64,000 nucleotides of DNA from Bacteroidota bacterium (lineage in GTDB: Bacteria; Bacteroidota; Ignavibacteria; Tepidaquicellales; Tepidaquicellaceae). The translations under genes were made by a program, and so were the position numbers. Below, piece by piece: positions 32,031 through 51,748 of the stretch (the first letter of the stretch is position 1; each line of letters begins with the position of its first letter). The notes under the pieces were generated by a model. It was not told where the DNA came from. It saw only the letters and a list, made by a program, of their open reading frames with translations, and did not search any database. The stretch spans positions 253 to 64,252 of the forward strand of contig JAFDZO010000009.1 of NCBI GenBank assembly GCA_018266845.1. The letters are read 5' to 3'.

Positions 32031-32060
32031 AAAAGGGTTAGCAAAACTGCCAACCCTTTT
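32031..32060 (-). terminator. Terminator of the truncated tRNA-Ala locus
   Basis: AAAAGGGTT (32031-32039) pairs with AACCCTTTT (32052-32060), extended by GCA/TGC after one mismatch, loop AAAC. On the minus strand the stem is followed by TTTTTTGTTT. It lies 22 bases beyond the 3' end of the tRNA fragment, as expected for the original tRNA gene's own terminator, so this side is the ancestral chromosome. Confidence 0.75.
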
Positions 32061-32082
32061 CATTTTATGGGATTTATATTCG

Positions 32083-32128
32083 TGGAGCATAGCGGGGTCG
32101 AACCGCTGACCTTTTGAATGCCATTCAA
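32083..32128 (-). pseudogene. 3' fragment of tRNA-Ala(GGC): attachment site at left end of the integrative element
   Basis: Read on the minus strand, the bases give the anticodon arm TTGAATGGCATTCAA (anticodon GGC), the extra loop AGGTC, the T-arm AGCGGTTCGACCCCGCT and the acceptor strand ATGCTCC plus discriminator A. No CCA is encoded. Base pairing breaks at the first anticodon stem pair, and the D-arm and 5' acceptor strand are missing, replaced by unrelated AT-rich sequence. Tyrosine recombinases commonly integrate at tRNA anticodon or T-arms and leave such a 3' copy at the distal end. The intact tRNA should then lie at the other junction, to the right of this window. Confidence 0.85.
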
Positions 32129-32168: not shown

Positions 32169-32244
32169 GAATTACCTTTCTATAAAAAGGAGTATTCTCT
32201 CTAATTAATATTCATTTCTCTATAAATCGTAGCCAAATCGTAGC
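32169..32244. repeat. Hairpin and tandem direct repeat just inside the att site
   Basis: A stem GAGAAT...ATTCTC with inner CCTTT/AAAGG (32169-32201) is followed by two copies of AAATCGTAGC (32224-32233 and 32235-32244) one base apart. They lie within 120 bp of the tRNA fragment and may be arm-type binding sites of the integrase or part of the promoter of the next operon. Confidence 0.45.
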
Positions 32245-32361
32245 GAGAAATCTCAATTACTACTTGCAAATTTTGTATGAATATAAATATTACACCATTC
32301 AAATAAAGCATTCATTATATTTTAGAAATTATTTATTTTCTTACTTTACTATTAAAAAAAT

Positions 32362-33261
32362 ATGAGTGCTGAAGACGAAGATTTTTTAAAATTGAGTAGG
32401 ATCAGTGAAGACCAAGCCCCTTATCAGATATTGCTCAATAACTATCCACTTAAGGAATTTCTTGGGTTAACTCCTTCAGAAATGCATTGGATTATATATG
32501 ACCCATATGGAGAAGATTCTGAATTTCAAATTAAGAGAGTTGATAATGATGTTCTTGATAAAATCCCTTTTTTTCTTTTAGCAGAATATTTGCTACTGAT
32601 ACTCTATCGGGATAGAAAGATAAAACTAACTAAAAAAGGCTGTTTACCGCTTAAATACTGCGAAGAATTAGTTAAAACAAAAATCATCAACGAAAGTATT
32701 TATGAGCATGAGACATTAAAGATCATAAGAGAAGATTATCTGCCATCGATTAGAGCGGTAAGAATTGTCCTGATGCTTGGAGGTCTAGTAACGTGCAAGA
32801 ATAATACGTTGACAATATCTCAATATGGCTTTCAGCTTCTGGAAGAGAAAAATAGACAAGAGCTTTTTGTTGTTATATTTGAAACATTTACTGATGAATT
32901 TCTTTGGAAGTATTTAGATGGCTATACAAGTCAATTGATTGGCCAATTAGGTTTTGTTTTTTCTATTTCAATGCTGAAACATTTTGGCACAGATAGCCAT
33001 GAAGCAAATTTCTATGCACATAAGTATAAGGAGGCTTTTCCTCTACTGGAAAATCATCTCAGAGATTCTCGGTTTTTCCCTAAAAATGATCAATTTATAT
33101 CCTGCTATAATTTACGTGTGTTTCAAAAATTCTTTAATTGGTTTGGACTGGTGAATAAAGATGAGCATCTCACCTCGAATATTGAAAAATGTAAATATTT
33201 TAAAACAGATATACTAGATAAGCTTTTTGAAACTCCGGAATTATTAAAACAATTTTTATAG
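32362..33261 (+). CDS. Conserved protein of unknown function, possible winged-helix
   Basis: 299 residues, soluble. Residues 24-45 read LLNNYPLKEFLGLTPSEMHW, and residues 88-103 have KLTKKGCLPLKYCEEL, a pattern resembling the short winged-helix units (L-T-x-x-G-x-L-P) of widespread uncharacterised proteins. A second such unit may be around 150-170 (TISQYGFQLLEEKNR). The centre has ETFTDEFLWKYLDGY and IGQLGFVFSISML. It stands 88 bp before the NACHT gene in the same direction and may share its promoter, but similar proteins also occur alone, so membership in the system is uncertain. Confidence 0.6.
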   Translation: MSAEDEDFLKLSRISEDQAPYQILLNNYPLKEFLGLTPSEMHWIIYDPYGEDSEFQIKRVDNDVLDKIPFFLLAEYLLLILYRDRKIKLTKKGCLPLKYCEELVKTKIINESIYEHETLKIIREDYLPSIRAVRIVLMLGGLVTCKNNTLTISQYGFQLLEEKNRQELFVVIFETFTDEFLWKYLDGYTSQLIGQLGFVFSISMLKHFGTDSHEANFYAHKYKEAFPLLENHLRDSRFFPKNDQFISCYNLRVFQKFFNWFGLVNKDEHLTSNIEKCKYFKTDILDKLFETPELLKQFL

Positions 33262-33349
33262 ATAACCATTTGAAGTTTCTCAAATCCAGTCAAGAAATCT
33301 TACATGTCTCATTTTTGGATTTGCTTGTATAATTTACCTTAAATAAACA

Positions 33350-36300
33350 ATGAACTATATTGAACCGAATTTAAGTCATTTTAAAGCATATAAAGATTTA
33401 AAAGAAAGTAAACCAACCTTAGGTTCTGAATGGTGGTATGAAGATAAGAGAATCAAGTTTCAAGATTTATCAAAGTTTCAATTCTTATTTTTGCTTGCTG
33501 AGCCAGGATTTGGAAAGTCAGAATTTTTAAATCAAATAATAAAATTTAAAAATGATTATAAGGAAAAAGCTATTATCATTGATCTGAAAAAAGTTACTGG
33601 TGGGTTTTCCTTAGCAGAATACATTAATAGAATAATGTCTCGCCCTGAAATTAAAAAGACTGATGACTTTCAGTTAATTAACGATGCCTCTATTACCATT
33701 TGTCTTGATGCACTTGATGAAGTCGGAAAAAATAAAATCTCTACAATCATAGAAAGGATTAAAGAACTTGTAACTGACTTTTCTAGCATAAAGGTAATTG
33801 TTTCATGTCGCACACTATATTTTGATGCTTTCCAGGATGAATTTCGAGGCTATTTATTTGAGTTTCTCAGAATTGAGGAGTTTAATAATCAGCAAATATA
33901 TCAGTACTTAAAGAAGCTCTCGTTTACAGAAGAACAAATCGACATTATATTTCATAATTTTTTTCAATCAGGAAAATCTTCTGTCTTACATACCCCAAGA
34001 TATTTAGTCCTTTTGGCCGCCTTTCTTCTTGATAATGGTTTTACTGGTCTTGCGCATATATCAAGGTGCGATCTGTTCGATTTATTTATTTATAATAAAT
34101 TAAAAAAAGAAAAATCTATCTTAGAGAATATTGATATCAACATATTTGAGAATATACTAGAAACACTGGCTCTTACTATGGAAATTTACCAAACTAACAA
34201 CATTACAAGAGAAGAATTAACTACTTTTTTTGCCGAAATAAAAAACGATTTGAAATTACACATTATTTCTGATATAAGTATTGAAGAATTTCTTTATAAA
34301 AGTGTTTTAAAGAATAATATTAGTGAAATTGAGTTTGAAAATACTGAATTCCAGGAATATTTGTCCGCTAAAGCACTGTCAAAGCTACCTAAATATAAGC
34401 AAGTAGTTTTTGATTTAATGGTAACCGAAAAAACCAGAGACATTTACCCTTCCTGGTTTAATGTTTTAAATTATTTAGTAGAATTAAAACCAGATTTACT
34501 TGAAGAATTATTAGATTTCGGGTTTGATAATGGAAAAATAATTAACCAAGGTTTTTTAAATTTACTTACAAACATAAATGCTAATACTTTATCTAATGAA
34601 ATCAAAAATAGGATTTTCTCTGAGATAGTAATTTATCATCAGCAGAATAAGATGTTTATGGATTATACTTTAGCCAGGAATCTTTCATATTACTATACAG
34701 AAAATAATTCAGCATTATTAAAAGATTTATTCAATAGTGATTTTGAAAATGAGAGTGAATCGTTCGCCTTAAAAAGAAATATATTTAATGTTATTTATCA
34801 AATCCTGGAAAGAGGTTCATTATCAGATAGCGATAAAGAATTATGGCAAGAAAATTTAATTCTCACATTAAATAGTATCAGTGAAAATTTTTACCTGAAG
34901 TATCAAATATTAATTTTGACCAAATATTTTAAGAGCATTGAGATATTAGCTCTTATACAGGCTTTGTCAGAGACTGCCGATATTACTGATAACGAAGAGT
35001 ATTCTTTGCTTGAAGCGGCACAAAGAATAGATCCAGACAGTGACGTTACATATAAATTAATGTTACATGGAATTTCAGATGAAGATTCCAATACATTATA
35101 TTCATTTTTTGAGACAAGGTCTTTAGCTTTTTTGAAAAGGTTTTTTATTGACATTTCTGGAAACGAAAATTTAATGCATGACTTTCATAAAATATGCAGA
35201 AGTATTCATTCCGAAAACAAATTATTAGAGTTTATTGATTTTTTAAAAGGTACTGACGACGAGGAATTAATTACTATAGTAAAAACGTTCATTATAAGTA
35301 GTTATATCTATGACAGGGACATTAGTGCATATTATTCAAAAGTTTTACCGTTATTGATAGATTATATATCTTCTATACAGGATAATTTTGTTTTTGAATT
35401 AATTGAGGCATTTAAAAATTCTGAGAACATATTTATTTCTAAGCTTTCCTCAATATTTTCAAACTGTGTTACCCTGGATAATTTTGAAAGATTTGATGCA
35501 GAAGTAAAACAGTATTTTCCTGATTATACATTTTTAGTAGGTGCCACTCTTTATAGCCTTAAATATTCCAAAAGAAAAGATGCTGAAAAATTATTTGAAA
35601 TGGGAAGACCATTATATCCATTGTTGTATGCAGAAAACGACAAATATGTTCAAGAAGAAAAAGACCGGGAAGAAAAAGAGAATAAAAAAATCTATAATCA
35701 ATTTTCAGAATTTTTAAAAGATTCAACAGATCAAAATTATTCTTTGAATATGTTTGATTTGTATTCATACCAGAGTAAAATAATTGAAAAATATATTACT
35801 GAGGATGAGAAAAAGAGATTGATGTATTTTACAGAAAAATTTCTTTCATTTTTTAATCCCTCAACAGCAGATTTTACAATCATTAAACGTGAGCCAAATT
35901 CTGTTCAATTTAATACTCACCCTTATATTCAGCATTACGGGCCTGCCATTGCTTGTGCTGATACTTTGAATATGAATGTTCGTAATTATAGAATGAATAT
36001 AATTAATTATATTCCCTTTGCTTATAGTGGACAATTAAGTTCTATTTTTAATCTTATAAAAATTATTTCTTTCGATGAAGCCAAAGAGGTCATTAATGTT
36101 TATCTGGAAAGAAAAAATGATTTATGGAAACATAATCCTGAATATTTTATAAGAGTAATTCAGCATTATAACTTAAGTCAGTTCCTTCCTCAACTAATAG
36201 AAAAATTTAATTCTGACGAGAATGAATTAGAACATTACCCATATTATAAAGTTGAAGAACTGAATTTAATAAGCCAGTTCATGAATAGTGAGGAGTTCTT

Positions 36301-37366
36301 GCAAAAAATTTTTGATAAATATCTGCTTATTCCTGAAAAGAAGTTTTTAGCTAATGAAGCGAATAAACTTCTTATTGAAAAATATTCACAATTTAATGCG
36401 ATAAAATGGAGAATTGAAAGCATAACCGAAAAAGCTTTTGAATTCAAGCCACCCAAAGGTGCACATACAGTTGACAAAAAAGAGGAAGAGTTAACAAACA
36501 AACGATATGCTGCTCCTTTGATTCAGGTTGTTAGAGAAGATTGTATTACATTATTTTTAGAATTATACTCCAAGTCCTTTGAAATTGCCAAAAAAGGAAA
36601 AAATTATGAGAGCTATGTAAATTATATACATGAGCTAGTATTTGCTTTTTTTAATAATTTGAAAAAATATAGTAATTATGAATATTACTTGCTTTTTGAA
36701 TCAGAAGTAAAAAAGTACGACTCGGAAATTTTTTATCAAACCAATTTATATCAACTTGAAAAACTTAAAAACCAATATTTAGACTATTTCGGAAAGGGAG
36801 ATAATATTCAAGATTGTATTACAAAATATAATCATTTAAAAGCAAAGCAATATATTGATGTATATGATAGCAAAGATTTATTCCTGTTAATAAAAAATTC
36901 AATTGAGAAAGATTTGAACATTTGGTTAAAAGGAGAGGGAAGAAAATTAATAGATGCTATCAAGAAAAAGGAAGAAGCGAAAGAAACTGAGCTGCAAATG
37001 TTGATCAGATTGGAACTAGAAAGAATTTTATTGAGAACCGGTATCAGACCACAAGAAATATACATATATAGAGAAGTTCAATCTCTTGATGACAAAAAGC
37101 CGGATTTTCTTATTGGTTATGGTTTAATTAAGCCAGTTTTGGTTGAGTTGAAATTAAGCAGTCATGCGGATTTGAATGTTTCAGAAATCGAAAATACCAA
37201 ATCATACAAAAGTTTCATTACATACCGGGAAAATTTCAAAGTTGATTATTCTATTTTTCTGATATATGAAAATCAGGAAAGAGAGCTTGAATTATATGAG
37301 AAACAATTATTAAATATCAAAGAAGTTTTTGAGAAAGAATCTAATGTGAATATCATTGCTATTTGA
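33350..37366 (+). CDS. NACHT-like NTPase with C-terminal PD-(D/E)XK nuclease motif
   Basis: A 1338-residue STAND-type protein. Walker A is AEPGFGKSE (residues 50-58), Walker B CLDALDEVG (118-126), and the sensor segment VIVSCR (149-154) is typical of NACHT domains. IEFENTEFQEYLSA (327-340) matches the motif that closes the winged-helix part of NACHT modules. Residues about 345-1200 are a long helical solenoid, the expected ligand-sensing part. The last 130 residues carry PDF (D1252), 13 residues on VELK (E1266, K1268): a PD-(D/E)XK nuclease core. Known bacterial NACHT and Avs proteins mostly carry the effector at the N-terminus, so this order is unusual. No signal peptide or TM. Probable anti-phage sensor-effector. 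Confidence 0.82.
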   Translation: MNYIEPNLSHFKAYKDLKESKPTLGSEWWYEDKRIKFQDLSKFQFLFLLAEPGFGKSEFLNQIIKFKNDYKEKAIIIDLKKVTGGFSLAEYINRIMSRPEIKKTDDFQLINDASITICLDALDEVGKNKISTIIERIKELVTDFSSIKVIVSCRTLYFDAFQDEFRGYLFEFLRIEEFNNQQIYQYLKKLSFTEEQIDIIFHNFFQSGKSSVLHTPRYLVLLAAFLLDNGFTGLAHISRCDLFDLFIYNKLKKEKSILENIDINIFENILETLALTMEIYQTNNITREELTTFFAEIKNDLKLHIISDISIEEFLYKSVLKNNISEIEFENTEFQEYLSAKALSKLPKYKQVVFDLMVTEKTRDIYPSWFNVLNYLVELKPDLLEELLDFGFDNGKIINQGFLNLLTNINANTLSNEIKNRIFSEIVIYHQQNKMFMDYTLARNLSYYYTENNSALLKDLFNSDFENESESFALKRNIFNVIYQILERGSLSDSDKELWQENLILTLNSISENFYLKYQILILTKYFKSIEILALIQALSETADITDNEEYSLLEAAQRIDPDSDVTYKLMLHGISDEDSNTLYSFFETRSLAFLKRFFIDISGNENLMHDFHKICRSIHSENKLLEFIDFLKGTDDEELITIVKTFIISSYIYDRDISAYYSKVLPLLIDYISSIQDNFVFELIEAFKNSENIFISKLSSIFSNCVTLDNFERFDAEVKQYFPDYTFLVGATLYSLKYSKRKDAEKLFEMGRPLYPLLYAENDKYVQEEKDREEKENKKIYNQFSEFLKDSTDQNYSLNMFDLYSYQSKIIEKYITEDEKKRLMYFTEKFLSFFNPSTADFTIIKREPNSVQFNTHPYIQHYGPAIACADTLNMNVRNYRMNIINYIPFAYSGQLSSIFNLIKIISFDEAKEVINVYLERKNDLWKHNPEYFIRVIQHYNLSQFLPQLIEKFNSDENELEHYPYYKVEELNLISQFMNSEEFLQKIFDKYLLIPEKKFLANEANKLLIEKYSQFNAIKWRIESITEKAFEFKPPKGAHTVDKKEEELTNKRYAAPLIQVVREDCITLFLELYSKSFEIAKKGKNYESYVNYIHELVFAFFNNLKKYSNYEYYLLFESEVKKYDSEIFYQTNLYQLEKLKNQYLDYFGKGDNIQDCITKYNHLKAKQYIDVYDSKDLFLLIKNSIEKDLNIWLKGEGRKLIDAIKKKEEAKETELQMLIRLELERILLRTGIRPQEIYIYREVQSLDDKKPDFLIGYGLIKPVLVELKLSSHADLNVSEIENTKSYKSFITYRENFKVDYSIFLIYENQERELELYEKQLLNIKEVFEKESNVNIIAI

Positions 37367-37443
37367 TTGCTGAATAAAATATAAAAAAATAGGTTAATTA
37401 TCTAATTCTATATCTCATTTATTTCATAATTTAACTAAATAAT

Positions 37444-38913
37444 TTGTACGTTTATCAAACATATTCCGATTATTACAAAATTCACATATTACATGAGGAA
37501 GCTTACAACCAAATTAGAATTATTTTTTCTAAATATTCCAAGAAATTAATTCTAAGATTCATTTCAAGTGTTTTAATGGATTTAGACAGAACTTTGAATT
37601 ATGATGAAACAGCTCTCGCATATGTTCATACTAGATATTTACGAATGGGTGGAGTAATTAACATTATACATAGAAGAGCCACTCATTTATTATCGCAAAT
37701 GTTTTATTCGTACAATGACTTTTCTGAAAGCGATAGTTCTTCTATAGTGAGAACAGCAGATACATTGAATCTATATTTATATGCAAATACAATTCTAAGC
37801 ATAGCAGAAAGGGAAGATTATTCTTCTGACCTTAAGGTATTTTTTAATTCTTACAAATATTCAAATGATTACATAGATAATTTTGACCTTCAAAACATTT
37901 TCTATTTCTATAGTAAATTTTATCGAAAGCTTGAATCATCAATGCACTTTGAAGCGTTTAATACAGCTGTGATAGAAGAAGTTAATGTTAGTTTGAAAGA
38001 TTTTACGAATTCTTTGGAGGCTATGTATATGAGAACTGGAAATTTTGATAAATCCATTATGAAAGAAAACTTTGAAATAGACTTTGATGACACTTATTTA
38101 TATTGGAGTAACCGAATTCCCAAGATACCAATTCCTTTTGAATATAAGCTTCTTATGGAAAAGCCAATAATTAAATCGGGTGATGAGCAGTTCATAGTTT
38201 GCTCACAATATTTCATAACATTAGCTATTGCGAAAAAGATTTATTTTATCCTTAGAAAGATCGATGCACAAAAGTTCGGAAATGAATTTGGTAAAATAGT
38301 CGAGGAAGTTATTTCTGAGTATCTTGGCCAAGCTCTGAGCAATGAAACCTGCAAAACGATAAACTTGAAGTATGATGACAATAAAGAATATGGAGATTTC
38401 GGTATTGTAATGGATAAGCTGGTTTTCTTGTTTGAAATCAAATCAGGAACATTAAGTTTGGCTGAAAAATATGAGCAGGATCTTGATAAATTTAAAGTAG
38501 GATTTGATAACAAATTTGTAAACAAAGGAGTAATCCAACAATTAAAAATTCTTAAGGAAATAAATGATGACTATGCGAAATTTTGTTTAGTTACTGGATT
38601 AGATGAAAGTGTGAATTATCGCTTTATACCAATTCTATTGTTTTTGGATGAAGAATTTTTTTGCAACGGTTTCAACCAATATTTGAGAAGTAGATATGTA
38701 GAGACAATGATAGAACATCAATATTTTTTCCCTAACATTATTAGTGCTAGAGTTAATTCCTCTTTGATACTTAATGAATTAAAATCAGCAATTGAGTATC
38801 ATAAAGATCCTCAAAAGATTTTATATTCAATCTATTTCTATGCGGCTTTTTATAATATTAAAGACATAACGTACAAACCCTATGAATTTTTTGTTCATAC
38901 TTTTTTAATGTGA
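37444..38913 (+). CDS. PD-(D/E)XK nuclease-like protein of the NACHT operon
   Basis: 489 residues from a TTG at 37444. An in-frame stop at 37432 excludes a start further upstream, and the next ATG would remove 44 residues. Residues 1-250 are helical without recognisable motifs. From about 275 a nuclease-like core appears: helix FGKIVEEVISEYLG (acidic E287/E288), then D318 in YGDFGIVMD and E331-x-K333 in LFEIKSG, i.e. the D...ExK pattern of PD-(D/E)XK enzymes. It lies 78 bp after the NACHT gene and its stop overlaps the next start by 4 bp. It is probably a second effector or partner of the NACHT protein. Confidence 0.72.
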   Translation: MYVYQTYSDYYKIHILHEEAYNQIRIIFSKYSKKLILRFISSVLMDLDRTLNYDETALAYVHTRYLRMGGVINIIHRRATHLLSQMFYSYNDFSESDSSSIVRTADTLNLYLYANTILSIAEREDYSSDLKVFFNSYKYSNDYIDNFDLQNIFYFYSKFYRKLESSMHFEAFNTAVIEEVNVSLKDFTNSLEAMYMRTGNFDKSIMKENFEIDFDDTYLYWSNRIPKIPIPFEYKLLMEKPIIKSGDEQFIVCSQYFITLAIAKKIYFILRKIDAQKFGNEFGKIVEEVISEYLGQALSNETCKTINLKYDDNKEYGDFGIVMDKLVFLFEIKSGTLSLAEKYEQDLDKFKVGFDNKFVNKGVIQQLKILKEINDDYAKFCLVTGLDESVNYRFIPILLFLDEEFFCNGFNQYLRSRYVETMIEHQYFFPNIISARVNSSLILNELKSAIEYHKDPQKILYSIYFYAAFYNIKDITYKPYEFFVHTFLM

Positions 38914-39641
38914 ATCATAAGAAAGAAGAATCAAATAAAGAAGTACCGTTCATTCGATATGAAGAATCAGAGATCCGAAAAAATGTTCTTTTGTTTTTGA
39001 AAGGTTATCCTAGGCTTTATTCATATTTCGGTGAGAATTTTTTGTTAAAAATTCTAAAGCAATATTATAACCGTATTGATGCGAATAAACCCGCTTACCT
39101 TATCGCATATTTCATAGCATTTGCTTACCAACAACAACACAAGATTTTCTTTGACGAACTGGAAGCAATGCTCACTTATTTTCACTCTGAACCTCATTTG
39201 AACATTTACATTACAACTCCGAAGAATAAGCTAAAGTCAATGAAGCAAGATGATTTTCACGGTGTGTGGAGCGAGGTTATATTTGCTTATTTTCTTCACA
39301 AGAATGGATATAAGATCAATAAAATAGGTCAGGCAAAAGGAGAAGCTCGTGAGCATGCTGATATTTTCACCGACAAAGGAATTTTTGAAGTTACTGTAAT
39401 CCTTTCTAAAAGAGACTATTATGAGCCAGGATTTGTTTTTGCAGGTTCCAATGAAATTATCTATGACTCTATCCGTCTCGTTAATGATAAAATTTCAGGT
39501 AAAGAGAAACAGAACGAAGCGAAGTTCATTGTCATAGATTGTACATTCATGGATGACCTTACTGAAAAACTCTTATCTTCAAGATACTTAAATATTCCTG
39601 TAGATTTTGAGGTGTTCAAAAAGACCTCGAAAATGTATTAG
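38910..39641 (+). CDS. PD-(D/E)XK-like protein with degraded active site
   Basis: 243 residues from a GTG at 38910, overlapping the previous stop by 4 bp, so translationally coupled. The C-terminal half resembles the nuclease fold of its neighbours: VWSEVIFAYFLHKNGY (helix with E122), then HADIFTDKG (D151) and FEVTVI, where E160 is followed by T162 instead of the catalytic Lys. It may be an inactive structural or DNA-binding partner, or the lysine may be contributed from elsewhere. The N-terminal 110 residues are helical and unassigned. Last gene of the operon. No T-rich terminator is clear after it, only a palindrome at 39751-39764. Confidence 0.65.
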   Translation: MNHKKEESNKEVPFIRYEESEIRKNVLLFLKGYPRLYSYFGENFLLKILKQYYNRIDANKPAYLIAYFIAFAYQQQHKIFFDELEAMLTYFHSEPHLNIYITTPKNKLKSMKQDDFHGVWSEVIFAYFLHKNGYKINKIGQAKGEAREHADIFTDKGIFEVTVILSKRDYYEPGFVFAGSNEIIYDSIRLVNDKISGKEKQNEAKFIVIDCTFMDDLTEKLLSSRYLNIPVDFEVFKKTSKMY

Positions 39642-39828: not shown

Positions 39829-40722
39829 TTAATTCCAATCGTATTTATCTCTAGATACAGCTCTCAAAATATCGATACAAAATTTAGAGTCATATGGAAT
39901 AAAGTTAATTTTAGTTTGTACCCATTCTAAAGATTGGAAACTATAAATTCCAGTTATAAGCGAAACTATGTTTGGACAGGATAAAGCTATTTTGAAGCTA
40001 ATTTCTTTTATTAATTCATTTATATTAGTTTTGTAAATTTCAAAATTACCTAACATCTTTTTTTCAATTAATTTTTTCACAATATAATTTTTCCCTTTTA
40101 TTGTAAAAATTCTTCCTCTTGAGAATGGTGAGAAACCAATAATGGGTTTATTACTGTTATTCCTAAAAATCTCCATTAACAAACCCGACTGAAGAATATT
40201 AGTGTAACCCCCGATATAATCTATATGCTTCGACTCTATTGCAACCCGAAATTCTGTAGGACTTTTGCACATTAAAATTATTTTTGGTTTATATCCCAAT
40301 TCATCAAAAATACTCATGGCCGCAATTTCTACCCATTGTACCAAAGCAAGCTTATTATCTAAGTAGGCAGCTTCTCTATGATGATCCACCTCTATGCACA
40401 CTGCAAATGGAAGATAAAGCGGGCAATTTTGTTTCGTATTTTTCAATCTGCCGGTAAACTGAGTTCTGTCTTTTTTTAATAACGATACAATATCGCTTTC
40501 CAGTTTTGTGATATGAAAAACTTGCTTATTAAATCGGGTAAGCAATTTGCATACACGTTCTTGAGTCCCAAGATTGGCATTTGTGTGTATTAAATTTATG
40601 CCATTATTAATGATTTTTTTAAATAGTACCTCCCTCTGAAAATCATCAATATTACTTCTTAATCTTCCATTAAATAACATTGAAGTACCTAAGCCAATCT
40701 TTGAAATTGAATTTCTTGTCAC
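39829..40722 (-). CDS. Aldo/keto reductase-like protein lacking catalytic Asp and Tyr
   Basis: 297 residues of aldo/keto reductase type: ISKIGLGTSMLFNGRLR at the N-terminus and a C-terminal half with GFSPFSRGRI. In the catalytic segment GINLIHTNANLGTQE the Asp of the usual D-T-A is His, and the Tyr of V-Y-G is Leu. The Lys strand (VFHITKLES) remains. Either the enzyme works without the normal tetrad or it is a binding/scaffold paralogue. Its start overlaps the carbamoyltransferase stop by 4 bp, so it is the last gene of the radical SAM/SerRS cassette. Confidence 0.75.
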   Translation of the reverse strand: MTRNSISKIGLGTSMLFNGRLRSNIDDFQREVLFKKIINNGINLIHTNANLGTQERVCKLLTRFNKQVFHITKLESDIVSLLKKDRTQFTGRLKNTKQNCPLYLPFAVCIEVDHHREAAYLDNKLALVQWVEIAAMSIFDELGYKPKIILMCKSPTEFRVAIESKHIDYIGGYTNILQSGLLMEIFRNNSNKPIIGFSPFSRGRIFTIKGKNYIVKKLIEKKMLGNFEIYKTNINELIKEISFKIALSCPNIVSLITGIYSFQSLEWVQTKINFIPYDSKFCIDILRAVSRDKYDWN

Positions 40723-42428
40723 GCTAATGTCTTCCGTTTTATTAAATAACTACCCATTATGCAATAATCCAAACTACTGTCAATAAAATCAGCTAATGCA
40801 TCTTTGGGAGTATTAACTATTGGATTTCCTTTTATATTAAATGATGTATTAATTATAGCAGGTATACCAGTTAATTTCTTGTAATGGTTTAATAAATCCC
40901 AACATTTTTTATTAAAGTTTGAACTAACGGTTTGAATACGGGCAGTCCCATCTACATTTAGTGCTGCAGGAATATTTTTTAGTGCTATAGGTTTCGCTTC
41001 ACCAGTGCAGAGCATATAGTTCAATATTGATTCCAGTGATTCTTCTATTGTAAAATAATCTTTTAAGTACTCTGTAAGTATCATCGGAGCAAATGGACGA
41101 AAAGTCTCTCTTTCCTTTATAAGAACATTCAATTTATCCTTTATTGATATCGGATAAGCTTGCGAAAAGATACTACGATTTCCTAATGCTCGAGGTCCCC
41201 ACTCCATTCTTTCCTGAAACCAACCGATTATTTTTCCTTGACTCAATAACTTTGCGCCGACCAAACTTGGATCTTCTACGAATTCTGCTTCAAGCAAATC
41301 ACAATATTTGGAAATTTCTGCCAATATCTCCGAGGATGAATATTCAGCTCCTAAAAAAGGATTCCAAGTTATATTTTTAGTAAAATGAGGGCAAAAATTA
41401 TTAGCAATAATTAATGCCGCTCCTAATGCAGTTCCTGTATCGTTTGGGGCTGGGGGAATAAATAGTTTTTCTACTTCTTTAAATTTTGCAATATAAGAAT
41501 TGGCAACACAATTTAATCCAACACCACCGGATAGACATACATTTTTATATCCCGCTCTTCGTATTGCTTCTAAAACTAAATTAGATATTATTGTTTGAGT
41601 ATATTTTTGAAGAGATGATGCAATATTTTTATGGTTTTGTGAAATTGAGCTGCCCATTTCCCTCTTTGGTCCGAATATCTCTATTAAACCAGCAAATGTA
41701 TTTTCACCTTTAACTTTCCAAAAATCAAGAACATTTAAGTCAACTTTGGGTTTGTTATTATTTCTATAACTAAATATCGAAGATAATATATTTATGTATG
41801 TCGGTTCTCCAAATGCCGATAAACCCATAACTTTATATTCATCGCATTGTGGTTTAAATCCTAAATATTCTGTAAAATAAGAATAAAAATATCCAACTGA
41901 AAAAGGTATACTAATTCCTCCTAAAGATTGTATCTTTCTGTCTTCTGCTTTAAAAAAACCTACGGACAGATATTCACCTCTACCATCAATTGTAACAATT
42001 GTTGCTTTCCGAAATGGGGATAAAAAAAAAGATGAAGCTGCGTGAGCTTCATGATGATTTACATAAAAAACCTTCCAATTTTTATTTATGCAGTATTTTT
42101 TTATATAGAACCATTCTTTTAATCTTTTGAAAGATTTTTTCAATCCATATTTTAAAGAAACATAATTACGATAATGTATAAACATCTTCAGAGGGGCAAT
42201 AAAAGATACAAAAGGATTCATAAAATATACTACATATACCTTACTCTCATCATTAAGCGAAAACTTGGTTATGATATATTCTAAAGACTTTTGAGGAAAT
42301 TTCTTTGTATGCTTTTCTCGATTATAACGTTCTTCTTCAGCTGCGAATAGAATTTTCCCTTTTGAATACAGCACCACACTTGCATCATGTGAACCATAAT
42401 TTATTCCAATAATATATTTTGGCTTCAT
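40719..42428 (-). CDS. NodU/CmcH-family carbamoyltransferase
   Basis: 569 residues, the usual family length. The N-terminal Kae1-like half contains GINYGSHDASVVL, VNHHEAHAASSFFLS (metal-binding His residues), VTIDGRGE and LSGGVGLNCVANS. The YrdC-like C-terminal half contains GPRALGNRSIF and KERETFRPFAP, the carbamoyl-adenylate site. Members put a carbamoyl group on hydroxyls or amines of small molecules (nodulation factors, cephamycin, tobramycin, nucleoside antibiotics). Here it is in one operon with a MoaA-like radical SAM protein and a SerRS. Substrate unknown. Confidence 0.93.
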   Translation of the reverse strand: MKPKYIIGINYGSHDASVVLYSKGKILFAAEEERYNREKHTKKFPQKSLEYIITKFSLNDESKVYVVYFMNPFVSFIAPLKMFIHYRNYVSLKYGLKKSFKRLKEWFYIKKYCINKNWKVFYVNHHEAHAASSFFLSPFRKATIVTIDGRGEYLSVGFFKAEDRKIQSLGGISIPFSVGYFYSYFTEYLGFKPQCDEYKVMGLSAFGEPTYINILSSIFSYRNNNKPKVDLNVLDFWKVKGENTFAGLIEIFGPKREMGSSISQNHKNIASSLQKYTQTIISNLVLEAIRRAGYKNVCLSGGVGLNCVANSYIAKFKEVEKLFIPPAPNDTGTALGAALIIANNFCPHFTKNITWNPFLGAEYSSSEILAEISKYCDLLEAEFVEDPSLVGAKLLSQGKIIGWFQERMEWGPRALGNRSIFSQAYPISIKDKLNVLIKERETFRPFAPMILTEYLKDYFTIEESLESILNYMLCTGEAKPIALKNIPAALNVDGTARIQTVSSNFNKKCWDLLNHYKKLTGIPAIINTSFNIKGNPIVNTPKDALADFIDSSLDYCIMGSYLIKRKTLA

Positions 42429-42490
42429 GAAATCAAAATAAATTATACAAATAAAAAGGAGAGTTGAGAGTGTAATATAATAGAAAGCTT

Positions 42491-43762
42491 TTATTTATTG
42501 GCAATATATTCCTGGCCAACCCATTTACGTAAGATTTCTGGAACCACTATCCCACCTTGTGAATCTTGATTTTGCTCAACAATCGCGGCAAATAGCCTGC
42601 TTGTCGCGAGTCCCGAGCCATTCAGGGTATAAACAAAATCTGACTTACCTTTTTTCGTATCTTTATAACGAATATTAGCACGCATTGCTTGATAAGTTCC
42701 TGAGTTTGAAACAGAACTTACTTCTTTAAATCCAAGTGATGGTATATAAACTTCAATATCATATGTTCGTTTCATTGAAGCACTTACATCACCTGCTGCA
42801 AGTTTTGTGACTCTATAGTGCAACCCTAAGTTAGCTACTAATTTAGAAGCCTTTTCGACAAGTTCGTCAAAAGATTGATGCCAGTTGTTTGGGTGGGCAA
42901 AATGGAACATTTCAACTTTGTTAAATTGGTGACCTCTAATAGTACCTTTCTCCTCACTTCCATACCCTCCGGCTTCTTTGCGATAACAGGGGGTATATGA
43001 AAATAACTTTATAGGCAACAAATTTTCAGCAATAACTTCGTCTCTATAAATATTAACTAATGCTGTTTCGGAGGTAGGTAAAAGAAATTTTTGCCCTTCT
43101 TTCCCGTCATTGTTAATAGTAAAAACATCATCAATAAATTTAGGAAACTGCCCGGCTCCAACTCCGCTTTCATAGTTCAAAATATGAGGTGGCAGTATAA
43201 ATTTGTATCCATCGCTGATATGTTCTGCAATGAAATAATTAATCAGAGCCCATTCTAATATAGCTCCTTTATCGCAATACAACCAGTTACCACTACCTGC
43301 TAATTTAACTCCACGATCGTAGTCGATTAAACCCAAATTTCTACATAATGAAACATGATCCAGTTGGTTAAAGGCTTTCTGTTTTACAGAACCAAATATA
43401 CTTATAATTTCATTGTTCTCTTTTCCTCCATTTTTTAAATCTTCATCAGGTATATTAGGTAATGTAATAAGCAAACTATCCAACTGTACTTTCAAGGTAG
43501 AAGCTTGCTTTTCCAAAAATTTGACAGTTTCTGAAAGTTTCTGCAATTCTTCCTGTCGAGAATGTAATGTTTCATTTGCTGAATAATTTTTAGTCAACTG
43601 TTTTTGTCTGCTCCTTAACTCCTCATATTCTTGATTGGCTTTTTTCCATCTTGAATCAATGAATAAAATTTCTGAAAGAATATCACTAAAATCACCGCCC
43701 CTTTTATTCAACGATAGTAATATCGCATCTTTATTGTCACGGATTTCTTTAATACTAATCAT
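42491..43762 (-). CDS. serS: Seryl-tRNA synthetase, mobile-element copy
   Basis: 423 residues, full length. N-terminal coiled-coil arm (about 30-105) that binds the tRNA-Ser long variable arm, then a class II catalytic core: TSETALVNIYRDEV, motif 2 CYRKEAGGYGSEEKGTIRGH and motif 3 GSGLATSRLFAAIVE with the catalytic Arg. All look functional. It probably charges tRNA-Ser. Its place on a mobile element inside a biosynthetic-looking operon (12 bp after the radical SAM gene) suggests either immunity to a seryl-AMP-like product, as with the SerRS paralogue in albomycin clusters, or provision of seryl-tRNA as a building block, as in valanimycin. Whether another serS exists in the genome cannot be seen. 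Confidence 0.92.
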   Translation of the reverse strand: MISIKEIRDNKDAILLSLNKRGGDFSDILSEILFIDSRWKKANQEYEELRSRQKQLTKNYSANETLHSRQEELQKLSETVKFLEKQASTLKVQLDSLLITLPNIPDEDLKNGGKENNEIISIFGSVKQKAFNQLDHVSLCRNLGLIDYDRGVKLAGSGNWLYCDKGAILEWALINYFIAEHISDGYKFILPPHILNYESGVGAGQFPKFIDDVFTINNDGKEGQKFLLPTSETALVNIYRDEVIAENLLPIKLFSYTPCYRKEAGGYGSEEKGTIRGHQFNKVEMFHFAHPNNWHQSFDELVEKASKLVANLGLHYRVTKLAAGDVSASMKRTYDIEVYIPSLGFKEVSSVSNSGTYQAMRANIRYKDTKKGKSDFVYTLNGSGLATSRLFAAIVEQNQDSQGGIVVPEILRKWVGQEYIANK

Positions 43763-43773
43763 AAATTGATATA

Positions 43774-44889
43774 TTAATGTTTAATAGTTTGTGGATAGAA
43801 AACTTCCATTGGTTTAGGAGTTCCAATCGCTCCAAACCGCTGTGAACCAAGCTGATTATTGTAATGTTTTCTAATTTCTATCGGTCGAATACTCTCCAAG
43901 TCTGTCTCCCTGAAGTTCATAGCATTTTTTATCGATTCAATTTTATCGTCTAAAGGCTTACCTGCTAACATAACATCTGCTTCAGGATAGTCCATACAGA
44001 TTGATACTTTTCCATTAGGTTTTACTCTCAGTTTGTGGCAGCCTCCGCACCTGTATTTCCACGTATACATTGCTAATACTCCTACTATTACATCATAATT
44101 ACCAATCTTATAATAATTGTATGAAGGATTATCACCTAAAATATGCGTTCTGTTAATAGGAATTAACTCTCCAATCTCACCTAACTTTTTCAATATTTCA
44201 CTATCTTCAACGACTTCATTTTTCCAATATTCAGAACCTTTTTCTTCCAATTGTGCCGGATTTGAAGGGAAGAATTGATTCAGTTTTATAATCATTCTCC
44301 CAGCATTGTCGTTTCTTGAATTTATCATATTAGCATACTCTACAAATGACCGCAATTCAGATAATGTAGATCGCATAGTACAACAACTCATTTTCGTAGG
44401 TGTACTTAATTTTTTGACAGCTTGTTCTAAACCTGATAAAACCTTTTCAAAAATGTTTACTCCAGTTACTTCGTGAAATCTCTCGGCTATTAAGGTATCA
44501 AGACTTAAAATTACTCTTGATAAACCGTTCGCGATCATTTTATCAATATCCTTTGACAAACGGTAACCATTTGTAGTTATGATTTGCTCTTTGTATCCTA
44601 TTTCTTTAGCTTTTCCCATACATTCTATAATGTCTGTACGTAATGTGGGTTCGCCTCCTGTCCAGTGAACCCTATTAATTCCATTTGAATAGGCCGCCTC
44701 TAATATCTCAACTACTTCTTGAAAAGGCAATACTTTCTGCTGCGGAAAACCTCCCTCAGGCGCACAGTATCTGCAAAAGAAATTGCAATTTGGAGTTACG
44801 CCAAATCTTAAATGCCATTTTCCTGAAGCGTTTTCGGAATCAATATGGAAATATCCTCCCATTGATTTTGTTGCTTGTGTGCTGTCCAT
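43774..44889 (-). CDS. MoaA-like radical SAM enzyme
   Basis: I start it at the ATG at 44889 (MDSTQATKS). A GTG at 44928 in frame would add 13 residues. The core CNFFCRYC binds the SAM [4Fe-4S] cluster, and WTGGEPTLR and LSLDT are further radical SAM strands. The C-terminal CGGCHKLRVKPNGKVSIC (CxxC...C) matches the second cluster site of MoaA, the GTP 3',8-cyclase. It lacks the GG tail of MoaA and no other moa gene is near, so a nucleotide-related substrate in a different pathway is more likely than molybdopterin synthesis. First gene of the four-gene cassette. Confidence 0.88.
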   Translation of the reverse strand: MDSTQATKSMGGYFHIDSENASGKWHLRFGVTPNCNFFCRYCAPEGGFPQQKVLPFQEVVEILEAAYSNGINRVHWTGGEPTLRTDIIECMGKAKEIGYKEQIITTNGYRLSKDIDKMIANGLSRVILSLDTLIAERFHEVTGVNIFEKVLSGLEQAVKKLSTPTKMSCCTMRSTLSELRSFVEYANMINSRNDNAGRMIIKLNQFFPSNPAQLEEKGSEYWKNEVVEDSEILKKLGEIGELIPINRTHILGDNPSYNYYKIGNYDVIVGVLAMYTWKYRCGGCHKLRVKPNGKVSICMDYPEADVMLAGKPLDDKIESIKNAMNFRETDLESIRPIEIRKHYNNQLGSQRFGAIGTPKPMEVFYPQTIKH

Positions 44890-45112
44890 ATTTTTTATTT
44901 TTTTATTTTGAAAAATGAAAATAGACACTGTAAACCTTTTTAAATTACAGTATTACCAAGGGAAATTGACAGATATAACAAATATAACAAAAATCTAACT
45001 ATTAAAATATAGATAATACTTAGTATTATTACATGTAAAAATTTAATATTCTTACTATTATTCACAATATTGTTTACTATGTCTTGGTTGTTACAATTAG
45101 AACGTATTTATA
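44890..45112. promoter_or_regulatory. Upstream region of the radical SAM cassette
   Basis: Very AT-rich. A 7-bp inverted repeat ACTGTAA (44927-44933) and TTACAGT (44945-44951) with an 11-base gap lies 38 bp upstream of the radical SAM start and may be an operator. A minus-strand promoter is expected here. No clear -35/-10 pair could be chosen. A second AT-only stretch follows to 45112. Confidence 0.35.
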
Positions 45113-45249
45113 GTGTGGCTATTACGTCCTTTTAAAAATACTTAACAGTATTTTTAAAAGGACAGCAAACCCCATTTAACCGCCTCGTAATAAAAATTCT
45201 CGGACGCTATAAACGGGGTTTGCCGTCCTTAACGGACGAATAGCCACAC
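45113..45249. other. Cloverleaf-like intergenic element 1
   Basis: An outer 11-bp perfect stem GTGTGGCTATT (45113-45123) with AATAGCCACAC (45239-45249) encloses three arms with almost no unpaired bases between them. Arm A is a perfect 17-bp hairpin, GTCCTTTTAAAAATACT (45126-45142) with its complement at 45147-45163 and a 4-base loop. Arm B is GCAAACCCC (45165-45173) with GGGGTTTGC (45215-45223), extended by TTT/AAA beyond one mismatch. Arm C is CGTCC/GGACG (45224-45238). No ORF. Function unknown; a single-strand DNA or RNA structure is implied. Confidence 0.75.
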
Positions 45250-45338
45250 AATAAAATATTTTTAATACGTAATAGTGTTTTGGCTTTCTAGAGTCAGATT
45301 ATTTCGGATTAGCATTTAGTTTTTTTAAATAACTAGAA

Positions 45339-45440: not shown

Positions 45441-46250
45441 ATGAACTCTAGAAAAATTTTGCTTAACAACCTACTTGATATTGGAGGTGTAGGAGCACTT
45501 AATAATTTCTATTCACCAAATGCAGTAAGTTACAAAGGAGGTTTATTATATACCCGTAAGCTATTTAAATCTTATATTGAGGACGGATTGATTGAAAAGA
45601 TTGAACCCATTGGAAAGCCAATGAACAAATGCCGGGAAGTGTTTTACTGCTTAACTAAAAACGGTGCAAGATATATAGGCAGAACAGATGAATACAAATA
45701 CAAAAAATATCAGAAGTCCCCCCACAACGTAATGCATGAGAGTATGAAATTTGATGTTGCGTTATCTTTCCTGCGTTATTTTCCAAATTGTAAGTTTACA
45801 TTTCGATATGACAGCAGTTTTTACGGTGTTCAGCCCGATATTTTAGTTAGAATTGAAAGCACTGAACCACGTCAAACGACACGTTTTATGCTAGTAGAAA
45901 TTGAAAGGAAAAAAACGGTTGATAGAGTATTTAATGAAAAAATAAAGCGATACGAATTGATGTTTAAGGCAATTGGAAAAAACAAATCTCACAACATAAA
46001 TCAATTTATTGTTTTATTTGTGTATGCGGATATTTGGTTCGATGTTTTTTTAAGACCACAACAATATACAGACCCGGTTGTAATTAATCACATTGAACGC
46101 ATTAGTAATTTGACTAGAAATCTAGTAATTCACTATTGTAAGTACCTCCCGGAAAATCTCTATAGGTTTACAGGATTTCATAATTTTTATCGTATTCATG
46201 AATCTGTATGGTTAACTCCTCGAGGAAATAGAGTTCAGTTAAATTTATAG
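45441..46250 (+). CDS. Replication-relaxation family protein 1
   Basis: 269 residues with the layout of the plasmid replication-relaxation family. The N-terminal half is winged-helix-like (YTRKLFKSYIEDGLIEKIEP, then the turn CREVFYCLTKNGARYIG). The C-terminal half is a restriction-endonuclease-like core with QPDILVRIE, FMLVEIERKKTVDR and AIGKNK. D...ExE instead of ExK suggests a nicking or non-catalytic role. Family members lie beside VirD4/TraD-type ATPases on mobile elements and are thought to act in mobilisation or replication initiation. No Shine-Dalgarno before the ATG. A second member is at 48461. Confidence 0.72.
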   Translation: MNSRKILLNNLLDIGGVGALNNFYSPNAVSYKGGLLYTRKLFKSYIEDGLIEKIEPIGKPMNKCREVFYCLTKNGARYIGRTDEYKYKKYQKSPHNVMHESMKFDVALSFLRYFPNCKFTFRYDSSFYGVQPDILVRIESTEPRQTTRFMLVEIERKKTVDRVFNEKIKRYELMFKAIGKNKSHNINQFIVLFVYADIWFDVFLRPQQYTDPVVINHIERISNLTRNLVIHYCKYLPENLYRFTGFHNFYRIHESVWLTPRGNRVQLNL

Positions 46251-46458: not shown

Positions 46459-47232
46459 ATGTTACCAAGAGTAAAAAAAGTTCTCGATCTCTTGATTGAA
46501 GAATTTAAAGAAGGTTCTAAAATACCTGAAGCAATAGCTTATTCATCATTTCCCATTCCGAACATACCAAGCGGTTCATGGAGTCTTATGAACCATATCC
46601 TAATGTATTTAGCCGGAACCAACGATGCTCGCGGCTACCGACAATGGAAACTAGTTCATCGCTTTGTTAAGAAAGGTTCTAAGTCATTTGATATTCTCGT
46701 TCCCAAATTCAAGAAACTAAAGGACGAAAAATCTGATGAAGAGCGAAGCGTGTTAACTGGGTTTATGTGTGCACCAGTTTTCAGAGTTGAAGATACGGAC
46801 GGAGAGCCGTTAGATTATGAAAACATTTCTCTTCCGGAACTTCCATTACTTGATTTAGCAAAGGAGTGGAATATTTCTGTAACAGCAGTACCTGGAAATT
46901 ACAGGTATTACGGATATTACTCACCAACCAAGAATGTAATTGCTTTGGCAACTCCCGAAGAAAAAACATTCTTTCATGAATTAAGTCACGCCGCCCATGA
47001 AAAAATTATCGGTAAACTTAAGAACGGACAAGATCCAATACAGGAAATTGTAGCCGAACTTTCAGCGCAAGCTCTTTGCCGAATTGTCGGTAAGGACGGA
47101 GATAAATATTTTGGCAACACATATCGTTATATCGAACTATATGCATCTGAAATGAAAATTACGCCCCATTCCGCCGTCCTTAAAGTTTTAACAGACGTTG
47201 AAAAGGTTTTAGCAATAATTCTTAACAAATAA
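46459..47232 (+). CDS. ArdC-like antirestriction protein with zincin domain
   Basis: 257 residues. The N-terminal part (about 1-100) has the layout of ArdC's single-strand DNA-binding domain (SGSWSLMNHILMYL... and RGYRQWKLV). The C-terminal part is a zincin: H173-E174-x-x-H177 in FFHELSHAAHE, with E200 in VAELSAQAL as the probable third ligand. ArdC proteins shield entering plasmid DNA from restriction. Strong ribosome-binding site AAAGGAG eight bases before the ATG. First gene of a tight plus-strand operon (46459-47977). This supports entry by conjugation or mobilisation. Confidence 0.85.
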   Translation: MLPRVKKVLDLLIEEFKEGSKIPEAIAYSSFPIPNIPSGSWSLMNHILMYLAGTNDARGYRQWKLVHRFVKKGSKSFDILVPKFKKLKDEKSDEERSVLTGFMCAPVFRVEDTDGEPLDYENISLPELPLLDLAKEWNISVTAVPGNYRYYGYYSPTKNVIALATPEEKTFFHELSHAAHEKIIGKLKNGQDPIQEIVAELSAQALCRIVGKDGDKYFGNTYRYIELYASEMKITPHSAVLKVLTDVEKVLAIILNK

Positions 47233-49724: not shown

Positions 49725-50520
49725 AAATAAATTTACGGTTGTTCCAAAATACGAGAAACCTCCAGATTTCATTGAAACACTTAAAAAGCTGAACGATAGC
49801 TTACCTGTTTCTGAAGTTAATGTTTCTCTAGATAAAGTAAGTTTGGAGCAGCTACTTTCAAATCTCAAAACTAATCTTGATAAAAAACCTTCTTGGTTTA
49901 TTTTCATGAGGCATCGTGAAAATGAAAAAATACGAATTGAATCAGAAAAAGTTGAGCTTTTATACCAGCAAATGAATTCGCTACGTAAAACGGGAAGAGA
50001 ATTTTTAGAATTAAAGGCTGATGCAATTTTTAGTTCTGAATTACTCAGGTTATTAGTTGAGGATAGAAGATTAGAATTTATAAATCAGATGGAGTTGAAG
50101 ATAAAGCAGCATGAAGGAGAAATTCATAAACTTGATATTGATAAAAGAAGACGAGAGAACGAAATTTTAGTTCTAGAACTCGAAAGAGCAAAACTTAGAG
50201 CTGAGATAGATTTGTTAAATGCTAAAACTGATCAAGAAAAAGAAATAGCCAATCTTTTAAAAGCTATGGTTGTGCAAGTGAATGATGACATGTCAAATGC
50301 AGCAGTAGTATCATTATTTCATGATTTAATGAATAGATATAAAACTGTAGTATCTAATACAGAAAATAGAGACTTTGAATTTGACGAATTTTTAAGAGAG
50401 TTTAGAAAAAAAATGATGAATGAAAATTTGAAACAGACTAAAGCTGAAACTAAAATTCACAACTCTAAAGCCAATCTTGAAGAATACAAAACAAAAAATA
50501 AGATGAAGGATGATGTATAA
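49717..50520 (+). CDS. Coiled-coil protein next to the VirD4-like ATPase
   Basis: 267 residues. Residues about 75-200 are a long heptad-rich region, highly charged (LKIKQHEGEIHKLDIDKRR...). No signal peptide or TM. It overlaps its neighbours by 8 and 11 bp, indicating co-translation with the ATPase. Function unknown; a structural or tethering partner for the coupling ATPase is an inference from position. Confidence 0.62.
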   Translation: MDKNKFTVVPKYEKPPDFIETLKKLNDSLPVSEVNVSLDKVSLEQLLSNLKTNLDKKPSWFIFMRHRENEKIRIESEKVELLYQQMNSLRKTGREFLELKADAIFSSELLRLLVEDRRLEFINQMELKIKQHEGEIHKLDIDKRRRENEILVLELERAKLRAEIDLLNAKTDQEKEIANLLKAMVVQVNDDMSNAAVVSLFHDLMNRYKTVVSNTENRDFEFDEFLREFRKKMMNENLKQTKAETKIHNSKANLEEYKTKNKMKDDV

Positions 50521-51748
50521 ATTAAGGCTGGGTAAAAGTGAGAGATTTGAAGATGAAGTTCCGGAGATAAAAAATATTAATGATAGGTTTGAACATACAT
50601 ATATTGTAGGAAAAACCGGAATGGGTAAATCTTCATTATTGGAGAGGATGGCGTTGTACGATATTAATTTTGGCTCGGCTGTAATTGTAATTGATCCAAA
50701 AGGAGACAGTATTAAAAAACTCTATCATTTGACAGAAGATAAATCCCGCCTCAGATACATTTCAATAGACTCGCCAATGATAATAAATCCATTGAATAAA
50801 GTAGGGTACAAATTGGATAATATTATTCAGGAGTTTATTCAGATTTTAGATGTGCTGATTACGTTAACTGCATCCAATCCGGAAAGTACAGTTTTAATGA
50901 GAGAAATTATCGGAATGGCGCTACGTTCTATTACTAAAGACGAAGATAAAAATATAGATTTTTTAACTCGATTTTTACTATTTCCGGAGGTTCGTAAAAA
51001 GTTCCTATTTTCATTAAACCCTTCAAGCAGCGAATATGAATATTGGAAAGAGTTTGATGAACTACAGGTGAAGTCTTTTAAAAATAAAGACCGAATCGAA
51101 TGCGCAAAGAGAGTTGCCTCAAGACTTCATGAAATTTCCAACGGTGAAATGAAAGACTTCGTTATCGGAAAGAATGAATTTGATATTTCTCAAATTGTTG
51201 AACAGGGGAAAGTCATTTTAGTTGATACATCCCGAATGAATAGAAACAGCCGAATTTATCTTTCAAATCTTATAGTTTACGCAGTTCTTTCTTACTGTGA
51301 TTTCGCTGAAAAAAAAGAGAAGCCTTTGCTTGTGTATGTAGATGAGTTCCAAATTGTAGTGTCATCTTTGTTTTCAGAATTGTTAGCTCGTAGTCGAAGT
51401 TCCAAAGTCGGATTTACTTTAGCTCATCAGACTTTTCATCAAATCCCTAAGAATATTTTAAATGATATTTTTGGAACAGTTGGAACGCAGATCTGTTTTC
51501 GCTCAGGTGATGAAGAGGCAAGTCGTTTAGCTCCTATCTTTGGCGTAAAGCGTCAAGATGTTTTCAACTTACCAAAATATCAGGCATGGGTTAGATTAGG
51601 GACGGATAATATATTAATTGAAACATATCCACCACAGTTAAAAGAAGTACCACAAATTGATTTGCCTAAACAGAATTACATTCAAGAAAACATCAATTTT
51701 TCTGTAAAAGACTATGATTTTTTAGAGGAAAAATGGATTCCTCTGTAA
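50510..51748 (+). CDS. VirD4/TraD-like coupling ATPase without TM helices
   Basis: 412 residues. Walker A is VGKTGMGKSS (residues 33-42), Walker B LVYVDEFQ (274-281), with the typical VIDPKGD (59-65), VILVDTSRMNR and FTLAHQTFHQIP segments of type IV coupling proteins and related DNA-pumping ATPases. Unlike classical VirD4 it has no N-terminal membrane anchor. The two-TM protein in the same operon may provide one. No relaxase with a three-His motif is seen in the element, so transfer may rely on the replication-relaxation proteins or a helper. Two adjacent ATG codons; either could be used. Confidence 0.85.
   Translation: MMYKLRLGKSERFEDEVPEIKNINDRFEHTYIVGKTGMGKSSLLERMALYDINFGSAVIVIDPKGDSIKKLYHLTEDKSRLRYISIDSPMIINPLNKVGYKLDNIIQEFIQILDVLITLTASNPESTVLMREIIGMALRSITKDEDKNIDFLTRFLLFPEVRKKFLFSLNPSSSEYEYWKEFDELQVKSFKNKDRIECAKRVASRLHEISNGEMKDFVIGKNEFDISQIVEQGKVILVDTSRMNRNSRIYLSNLIVYAVLSYCDFAEKKEKPLLVYVDEFQIVVSSLFSELLARSRSSKVGFTLAHQTFHQIPKNILNDIFGTVGTQICFRSGDEEASRLAPIFGVKRQDVFNLPKYQAWVRLGTDNILIETYPPQLKEVPQIDLPKQNYIQENINFSVKDYDFLEEKWIPL

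Follow-up and report, generated by a model that had tools for sequence, protein, structure and literature searches.

A conserved four-gene operon with a divergent seryl-tRNA synthetase and a MoaA-like radical SAM enzyme, carried as cargo of an integrative element in Ignavibacteria

Why does a mobile element carry a second seryl-tRNA synthetase (SerRS), and why is it joined there to a MoaA-like radical S-adenosylmethionine (SAM) enzyme, a carbamoyltransferase and a protein with the fold of an aldo/keto reductase (AKR)? The question is raised by a stretch of 64,000 nucleotides (the window; positions 253 to 64,252 of contig JAFDZO010000009.1, assembly GCA_018266845.1), in which an earlier note, made from the letters alone, had described four co-directional genes as a mobile biosynthetic cassette. 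The four open reading frames do form one operon on the minus strand, from 44889 to 39829, at the coordinates first given for them, and the reported spacing proved exact: 11 bp lie between the radical SAM and SerRS genes, 62 bp between the SerRS and carbamoyltransferase genes, and the carbamoyltransferase and AKR-like genes overlap by 4 bp. The mobile element had been called Chlorobi-type, which needs correction, as its carrier is an Ignavibacteria-type bacterium and not strictly one of the Chlorobi.

The four genes are a conserved, transferable operon carried as mobile cargo. A search of genome contigs with the radical SAM enzyme, of the kind that the note had proposed, found the identical gene set, in the same gene order and with the same spacing, in Ignavibacteria MAG_28 (contig JAIOIK010000017.1), which belongs to the same taxonomic order as the window genome but to a different family, and where the cassette sits at the equivalent place of a related element. 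Between the two copies the proteins are 75% (radical SAM enzyme), 72% (SerRS), 69% (carbamoyltransferase) and 54% (AKR-like protein) identical. At third codon positions identity falls to 44-48%, silent sites being saturated, and the conservation of the proteins despite this divergence indicates that they have long been under purifying selection.

The cassette is rare, and two copies were found in total (G396 and G691, for which the same contig was shown, were counted as one genome). Of the 391 genomes of the class, the window genome and MAG_28 alone encode the radical SAM enzyme or a close relative of it, and the same two carriers are the only ones among the 44 genomes of the order to have a second full-length SerRS. 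Both have a separate housekeeping serS as well, and neither has a second copy of the carbamoyltransferase or the AKR-like gene. Chance neighbourhood, which the earlier note had tied to a SerRS that was the only one in its genome and to genes unlinked in relatives, is rejected: the opposite was clearly found on both counts, the gene set recurring in a second genome despite saturated silent divergence and the extra SerRS being confined to the carriers. The gene set had no match in the viral contigs searched and was not recognised among the plasmid and phage matches whose rows and neighbourhoods were inspected; these held only MoaA, ordinary SerRS and unlinked carbamoyltransferases. The AKR-like protein had no match in the plasmid and phage searches, and the carbamoyltransferase neighbourhoods on four plasmids contained no SerRS. 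One SerRS match on a Streptomyces plasmid belongs to a valanimycin-like cluster with VlmB. A full-text literature search found no description of the gene set, which appears to be undescribed.

The radical SAM enzyme (43774-44928, minus strand) probably starts at the ATG at 44889, which is codon 14 of the longest open reading frame (from 44928) and aligns with the first methionine of an archaeal relative. It matches Pfam Radical_SAM with 90 bits, Mob_synth_C remaining under its cut-off, and reaches 148 bits against the MoaA model TIGR02666, about half of the cut-off of 284. It shares with MoaA, the GTP 3',8-cyclase, both iron-sulphur cluster motifs (CxxxCxxC in the N-terminal and CxxC...C in the C-terminal part), and in the alignment the basic positions R41, R86, K179, K215, K299 and R301 stay basic. 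These positions bind the GTP phosphates in MoaA. On the other hand, identity to MoaA is only about 28%, and the GlyGly tail in which the aligned Escherichia coli and Listeria MoaA end is absent from the cassette enzyme and its relatives. This C-terminal GlyGly is needed for cyclisation in MoaA. The closest solved structures by sequence are MoaA (83 bits) and AbmM of the albomycin pathway (63 bits), followed by PqqE and by BlsE of blasticidin S biosynthesis. A Foldseek search with the predicted model, whose predicted local distance difference test (pLDDT) score is 56, ranks MoaA 1tv7 best (E 3.5e-12), with AbmM and the viperins lower.

A role in molybdenum cofactor synthesis is rejected, given the missing GlyGly tail and the window genome, in which no moaA exceeds the cut-off; the enzyme stands apart from the moa pathway, as had been suspected. 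Viperin membership is rejected as well, on the NCBIfam score of 50.7 bits against a cut-off of 180 and a PADLOC match to pVip that amounts to 61 bits over 113 residues only. Relatives of the enzyme, found in two archaea and in a further member of the class, have as gene neighbours an NDK-HD fusion, a thymidylate-kinase-like gene paired with an HD gene, and a PfkB kinase. Because of these neighbours, the MoaA-like basic positions and the kinship to MoaA, AbmM and BlsE, the comparison points to a nucleotide or nucleoside as the probable substrate, in agreement with the earlier suggestion of radical chemistry on a nucleotide.

The archaeal loci deserve a remark of their own. In the archaeon UBA583 (L005, 8819-11068) and in G556 (L014, 7738-10407), radical SAM relatives with 53% and 34% identity, respectively, lie beside the NDK-HD fusion or the thymidylate-kinase-like/HD pair, and such loci could represent an archaeal pathway for nucleotide modification.

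The SerRS (42491-43762, minus strand) is divergent but complete, on the evidence of the family model, domain matches, tree and residue alignment. It passes TIGR00414 (serS) with 371 bits against a cut-off of 302, has both Seryl_tRNA_N, the N-terminal tRNA-binding arm (56 bits), and tRNA-synt_2b over their cut-offs, is full length, and retains the residues of motif 2 and motif 3. With these catalytic residues in place it is predicted to aminoacylate tRNA-Ser. Of 96 positions that are near-invariant in bacterial SerRS, 70 are kept and 26 are changed, including C322A, F328A, W339Y, R360M and H378Y, several of which we take to be near the active site. In the tree, a branch of 2.4 substitutions per site sets the two cassette proteins off from all other bacterial SerRS, by which a recent duplication of the host serS is rejected; judged from tree and alignment, the protein is an old, specialised paralogue.

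The third gene (40719-42428, minus strand) encodes a two-domain O-carbamoyltransferase of the TobZ/GdmN type, the sole copy in the genome. Carbam_trans_N and Carbam_trans_C are both far above their cut-offs, and the signature motifs HHxxH, GGVGLN and RPFAP are intact. It shares the two domains and these motifs with TobZ, GdmN and NovN but is distant from them, GdmN being the best match among solved structures. As far as can be read from the sequences, the active-site motifs of the radical SAM enzyme, the SerRS and the carbamoyltransferase are all complete. The fourth protein (39829-40722, minus strand) is different, and here the identities given in the earlier note hold only in part, the other three having stood. 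It has no close relative outside the cassette and scores 13.5 bits against the Pfam aldo/keto reductase family, for which the cut-off is 24. The predicted fold, however, agrees: the model (pLDDT 62) shows a barrel of eight strands, for which Foldseek ranks AKRs first (E 6.6e-5). The active site appears degenerate by inspection. The Asp and Tyr of the Asp-Tyr-Lys-His tetrad read His and Leu in the segment HTNANLG, a region in which the global alignment is poor, and because of this segment ordinary reductase chemistry is doubtful.

The carrier of the cassette is an integrative element of about 36 kb in tRNA-Ala(GGC), bordered by a 98-bp direct repeat. Its left attachment repeat, which contains the 3' part of tRNA-Ala(GGC), lies at 32031-32128 and is identical to contig positions 68094-68191 (C46), beyond the window, where the right copy overlaps the tRNA-Ala(GGC) gene and is abutted by an integrase gene; the exact repeat, together with the tRNA gene and the integrase at the right end, defines the size and the site of the element. 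The end sequence TCGTAGCCAAATCGTAGCGAGAA (32225-32250) recurs beside the right-hand repeat, and in MAG_28 it is found at the left end together with a fragment that resembles the 3' end of tRNA-Ala. The mobility which the earlier note had assumed is thereby substantiated, as the genes are cargo of a tRNA-Ala element here and of a related element in MAG_28.

The cassette is one choice among the cargoes of a cargo site. Sister elements in the same order, recognised by a shared mobility gene and a shared folded element, hold in the same slot a type III restriction-modification pair with Hachiman HamA/HamB (L079, G780:C157, 191-7408), an RND efflux operon (G773) or an alpha/beta hydrolase (G728), and one (G761) has no cassette-like cargo. 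In MAG_28 the cassette directly follows the left end, whereas in the window an additional cargo operon on the plus strand (32362-39641), present in this copy only, lies in between.

What, then, could the cassette do? In biosynthetic operons, a paralogue of SerRS is a recognised pointer to an antibiotic directed against this enzyme. The interpretation in the earlier note is partly supported, with the nucleoside antibiotic, the part of the SerRS in resistance or serine donation, and a defence role as its putative elements. We consider, at a probability of roughly 0.45, that the cassette encodes a mobile pathway whose product is a carbamoylated metabolite derived from a nucleotide, and which brings its own SerRS. 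In this pathway a nucleotide or nucleoside would sit at the C-terminal iron-sulphur cluster of the radical SAM enzyme, in the way GTP does in MoaA, and undergo chemistry driven by the 5'-deoxyadenosyl radical. The resulting compound would next receive a carbamoyl group, on a hydroxyl or an amine, from the TobZ/GdmN-type enzyme, and the AKR-fold protein could assist in a non-standard step. The SerRS might either provide activated serine, the part played by AbmK in albomycin synthesis, or be an inhibitor-insensitive copy, shielding a host whose housekeeping SerRS is the target of the product. A small metabolite that targets SerRS or bears a seryl group would be the expected product. Self-protection is somewhat more likely than serine donation, because no seryl-transferase is present.

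The closest analogy is the albomycin (SB-217452) cluster of Streptomyces, in which the SerRS paralogue AbmK both supplies activated serine for biosynthesis and confers immunity (PMC9032320), and which also encodes enzymes of the carbamoyltransferase and radical SAM classes (PMC9032320; PMC12691670). Shared with it are three enzyme classes: a divergent extra SerRS (AbmK), a carbamoyltransferase (AbmE) and radical SAM enzymes (AbmJ/AbmM). The likeness is one of enzyme class, as taken from cluster descriptions. AbmM is among the closest solved relatives of the radical SAM enzyme. The albomycin cluster differs in having AbmH, AbmD, AbmF, AbmG, an N-methyltransferase, and siderophore and transport genes, all of which the cassette lacks; the cassette consists of four genes, with an AKR-fold gene instead, and resides on a mobile element. 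A compact precedent is the 4'-thiothymidine cluster thmA-C of Photorhabdus, a three-gene radical SAM operon for a nucleoside antibiotic with its own resistance gene, which works through a nucleoside triphosphatase (PMC12691670); it is similarly small but has neither SerRS nor carbamoyltransferase. By analogy, the cassette may work like a pathway of the albomycin kind. It would be a nucleoside-type cluster that contains a SerRS, and there is a fair chance that it is something newer.

Several points weigh against such a pathway. The step of the AKR-like protein has no explanation in it, the structure models are of low confidence (pLDDT 56-62), and the likeness to AbmK, AbmJ and AbmE is one of enzyme class. 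The cassette and the annotated genes of the element include no transporter, regulator, nucleoside kinase, seryl-transferase or AbmH/D/F/G, and no siderophore genes are found among the latter. Furthermore, the archaeal radical SAM relatives occur without an extra SerRS and without a carbamoyltransferase, so that the association with a SerRS is peculiar to the cassette.

A bolder form of the proposal, which we regard as doubtful, makes the cassette a four-gene antibiotic factory, whose carbamoylated nucleotide analogue would poison the SerRS of cells that lack the element while the cassette SerRS would immunise the carrier, so that the element would both arm and addict its host; we know of no such SerRS-poisoning compound from this bacterial group. 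Weapons of a different kind are suggested by the surroundings. The slot holds restriction-modification and Hachiman genes in a sister element, the window cassette adjoins an operon for nucleoside triphosphatase (NTPase)-like and nuclease-like proteins, the radical SAM enzyme has its partial likeness to pVip, and its relatives are linked to nucleotide kinases, all of which would suit an anti-phage system in which the enzyme makes a modified nucleotide and the SerRS sustains translation during the response or acts as a sensor. Viperins make chain terminators. However, the full-length viperin model fails, no other defence model fits, neither the carbamoyltransferase nor the AKR-like protein has a PADLOC match, and the efflux operon shows that the slot is not reserved for defence; such a system is unlikely. 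Unlikely to much the same degree is a pathway dependent on seryl-tRNA, in which the SerRS would charge the tRNA and the carbamoyltransferase and radical SAM enzyme would act on the transferred serine, giving for instance O-carbamoyl-serine derivatives. VlmL is a SerRS that makes seryl-tRNA for valanimycin. As in that case, a divergent SerRS stands within a small-molecule cluster; it retains the Seryl_tRNA_N arm and all core catalytic motifs, and its plasmid match lies in the valanimycin-like cluster. The identity to VlmL-type SerRS is only 38%, though, the cassette has no VlmA-like or other aminoacyl-tRNA transferase as a partner, and its radical SAM enzyme appears to be directed at nucleotides.

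Modification of a polysaccharide by the carbamoyltransferase and the AKR-fold protein, as part of a surface-glycan or sugar cassette, is quite improbable. Carbamoyltransferases of the same family do occur in glycan-type plasmid regions, and a large polysaccharide cluster lies to the left of the element, but this cluster is outside the attachment repeat, and to the left of the element in MAG_28 no such cluster was seen. We know of no role for SerRS in glycan-modifying pathways. That a duplicate SerRS and unrelated enzymes merely hitchhike as passengers, with no joint function, accords with their rarity in the class but is already largely refuted, and we give it hardly any weight: the genes, overlapping or closely spaced, have stayed together under purifying selection in two families while silent divergence became saturated, and the host serS was not recently duplicated.

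If the proposed pathway for a carbamoylated nucleotide-derived metabolite is true, the MoaA-like enzyme, here neither MoaA nor viperin, would open new radical SAM chemistry on nucleotides, and the operon would probably yield a new SerRS inhibitor together with its resistance gene. It would also mean that an antibiotic pathway is traded as cargo of an element, in a slot shared with restriction, Hachiman and efflux genes. The gene set is compact enough to be expressed as a whole.

A conserved folding element (45106-45262) separates the cassette from the mobility gene; it belongs to the backbone of the integrative element and not to the cassette. This element of about 150 nucleotides is also present in G761, G728, G785, G691, G773 and G780, and can fold into a three-way junction with 44 predicted pairs, eight of which carry compensatory changes (six sequences). 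Wherever the neighbourhood was read, it is located just upstream of the replication-relaxation-like gene, whether or not the cassette is present. No Rfam family was matched in the window. The folding element may be the transfer or single-strand origin of the integrative element, or a structured RNA.

The remaining backbone genes in the window are on the plus strand: the replication-relaxation mobility gene common to the sister elements (45441-46250; PF13814-like, below the cut-off), an anti-restriction gene with a domain match to the ArdC N-terminus (46459-47232), a coupling ATPase of the TraD/TrwB type (50510-51748) and a tyrosine integrase (62297-63295), which is internal and distinct from the second one abutting the right attachment site outside the window. 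The additional cargo operon at 32362-39641 has four genes. One of them encodes an NTPase-like protein of 1338 amino acids with a nuclease-like C-terminus, and two more proteins have nuclease-like motifs, all by eye and with no clear family; from these features it looks like an undescribed defence system. Beside another relative of the mobility gene (L027, 5681-7552, in G078), the cargo is an ATPase-like protein of 623 amino acids that matched no defence model. Just outside the left attachment repeat ends a large surface polysaccharide cluster (112-28549, minus strand), with Wzz, an ABC transporter, epimerases and an Epimerase_2-GNAT fusion.

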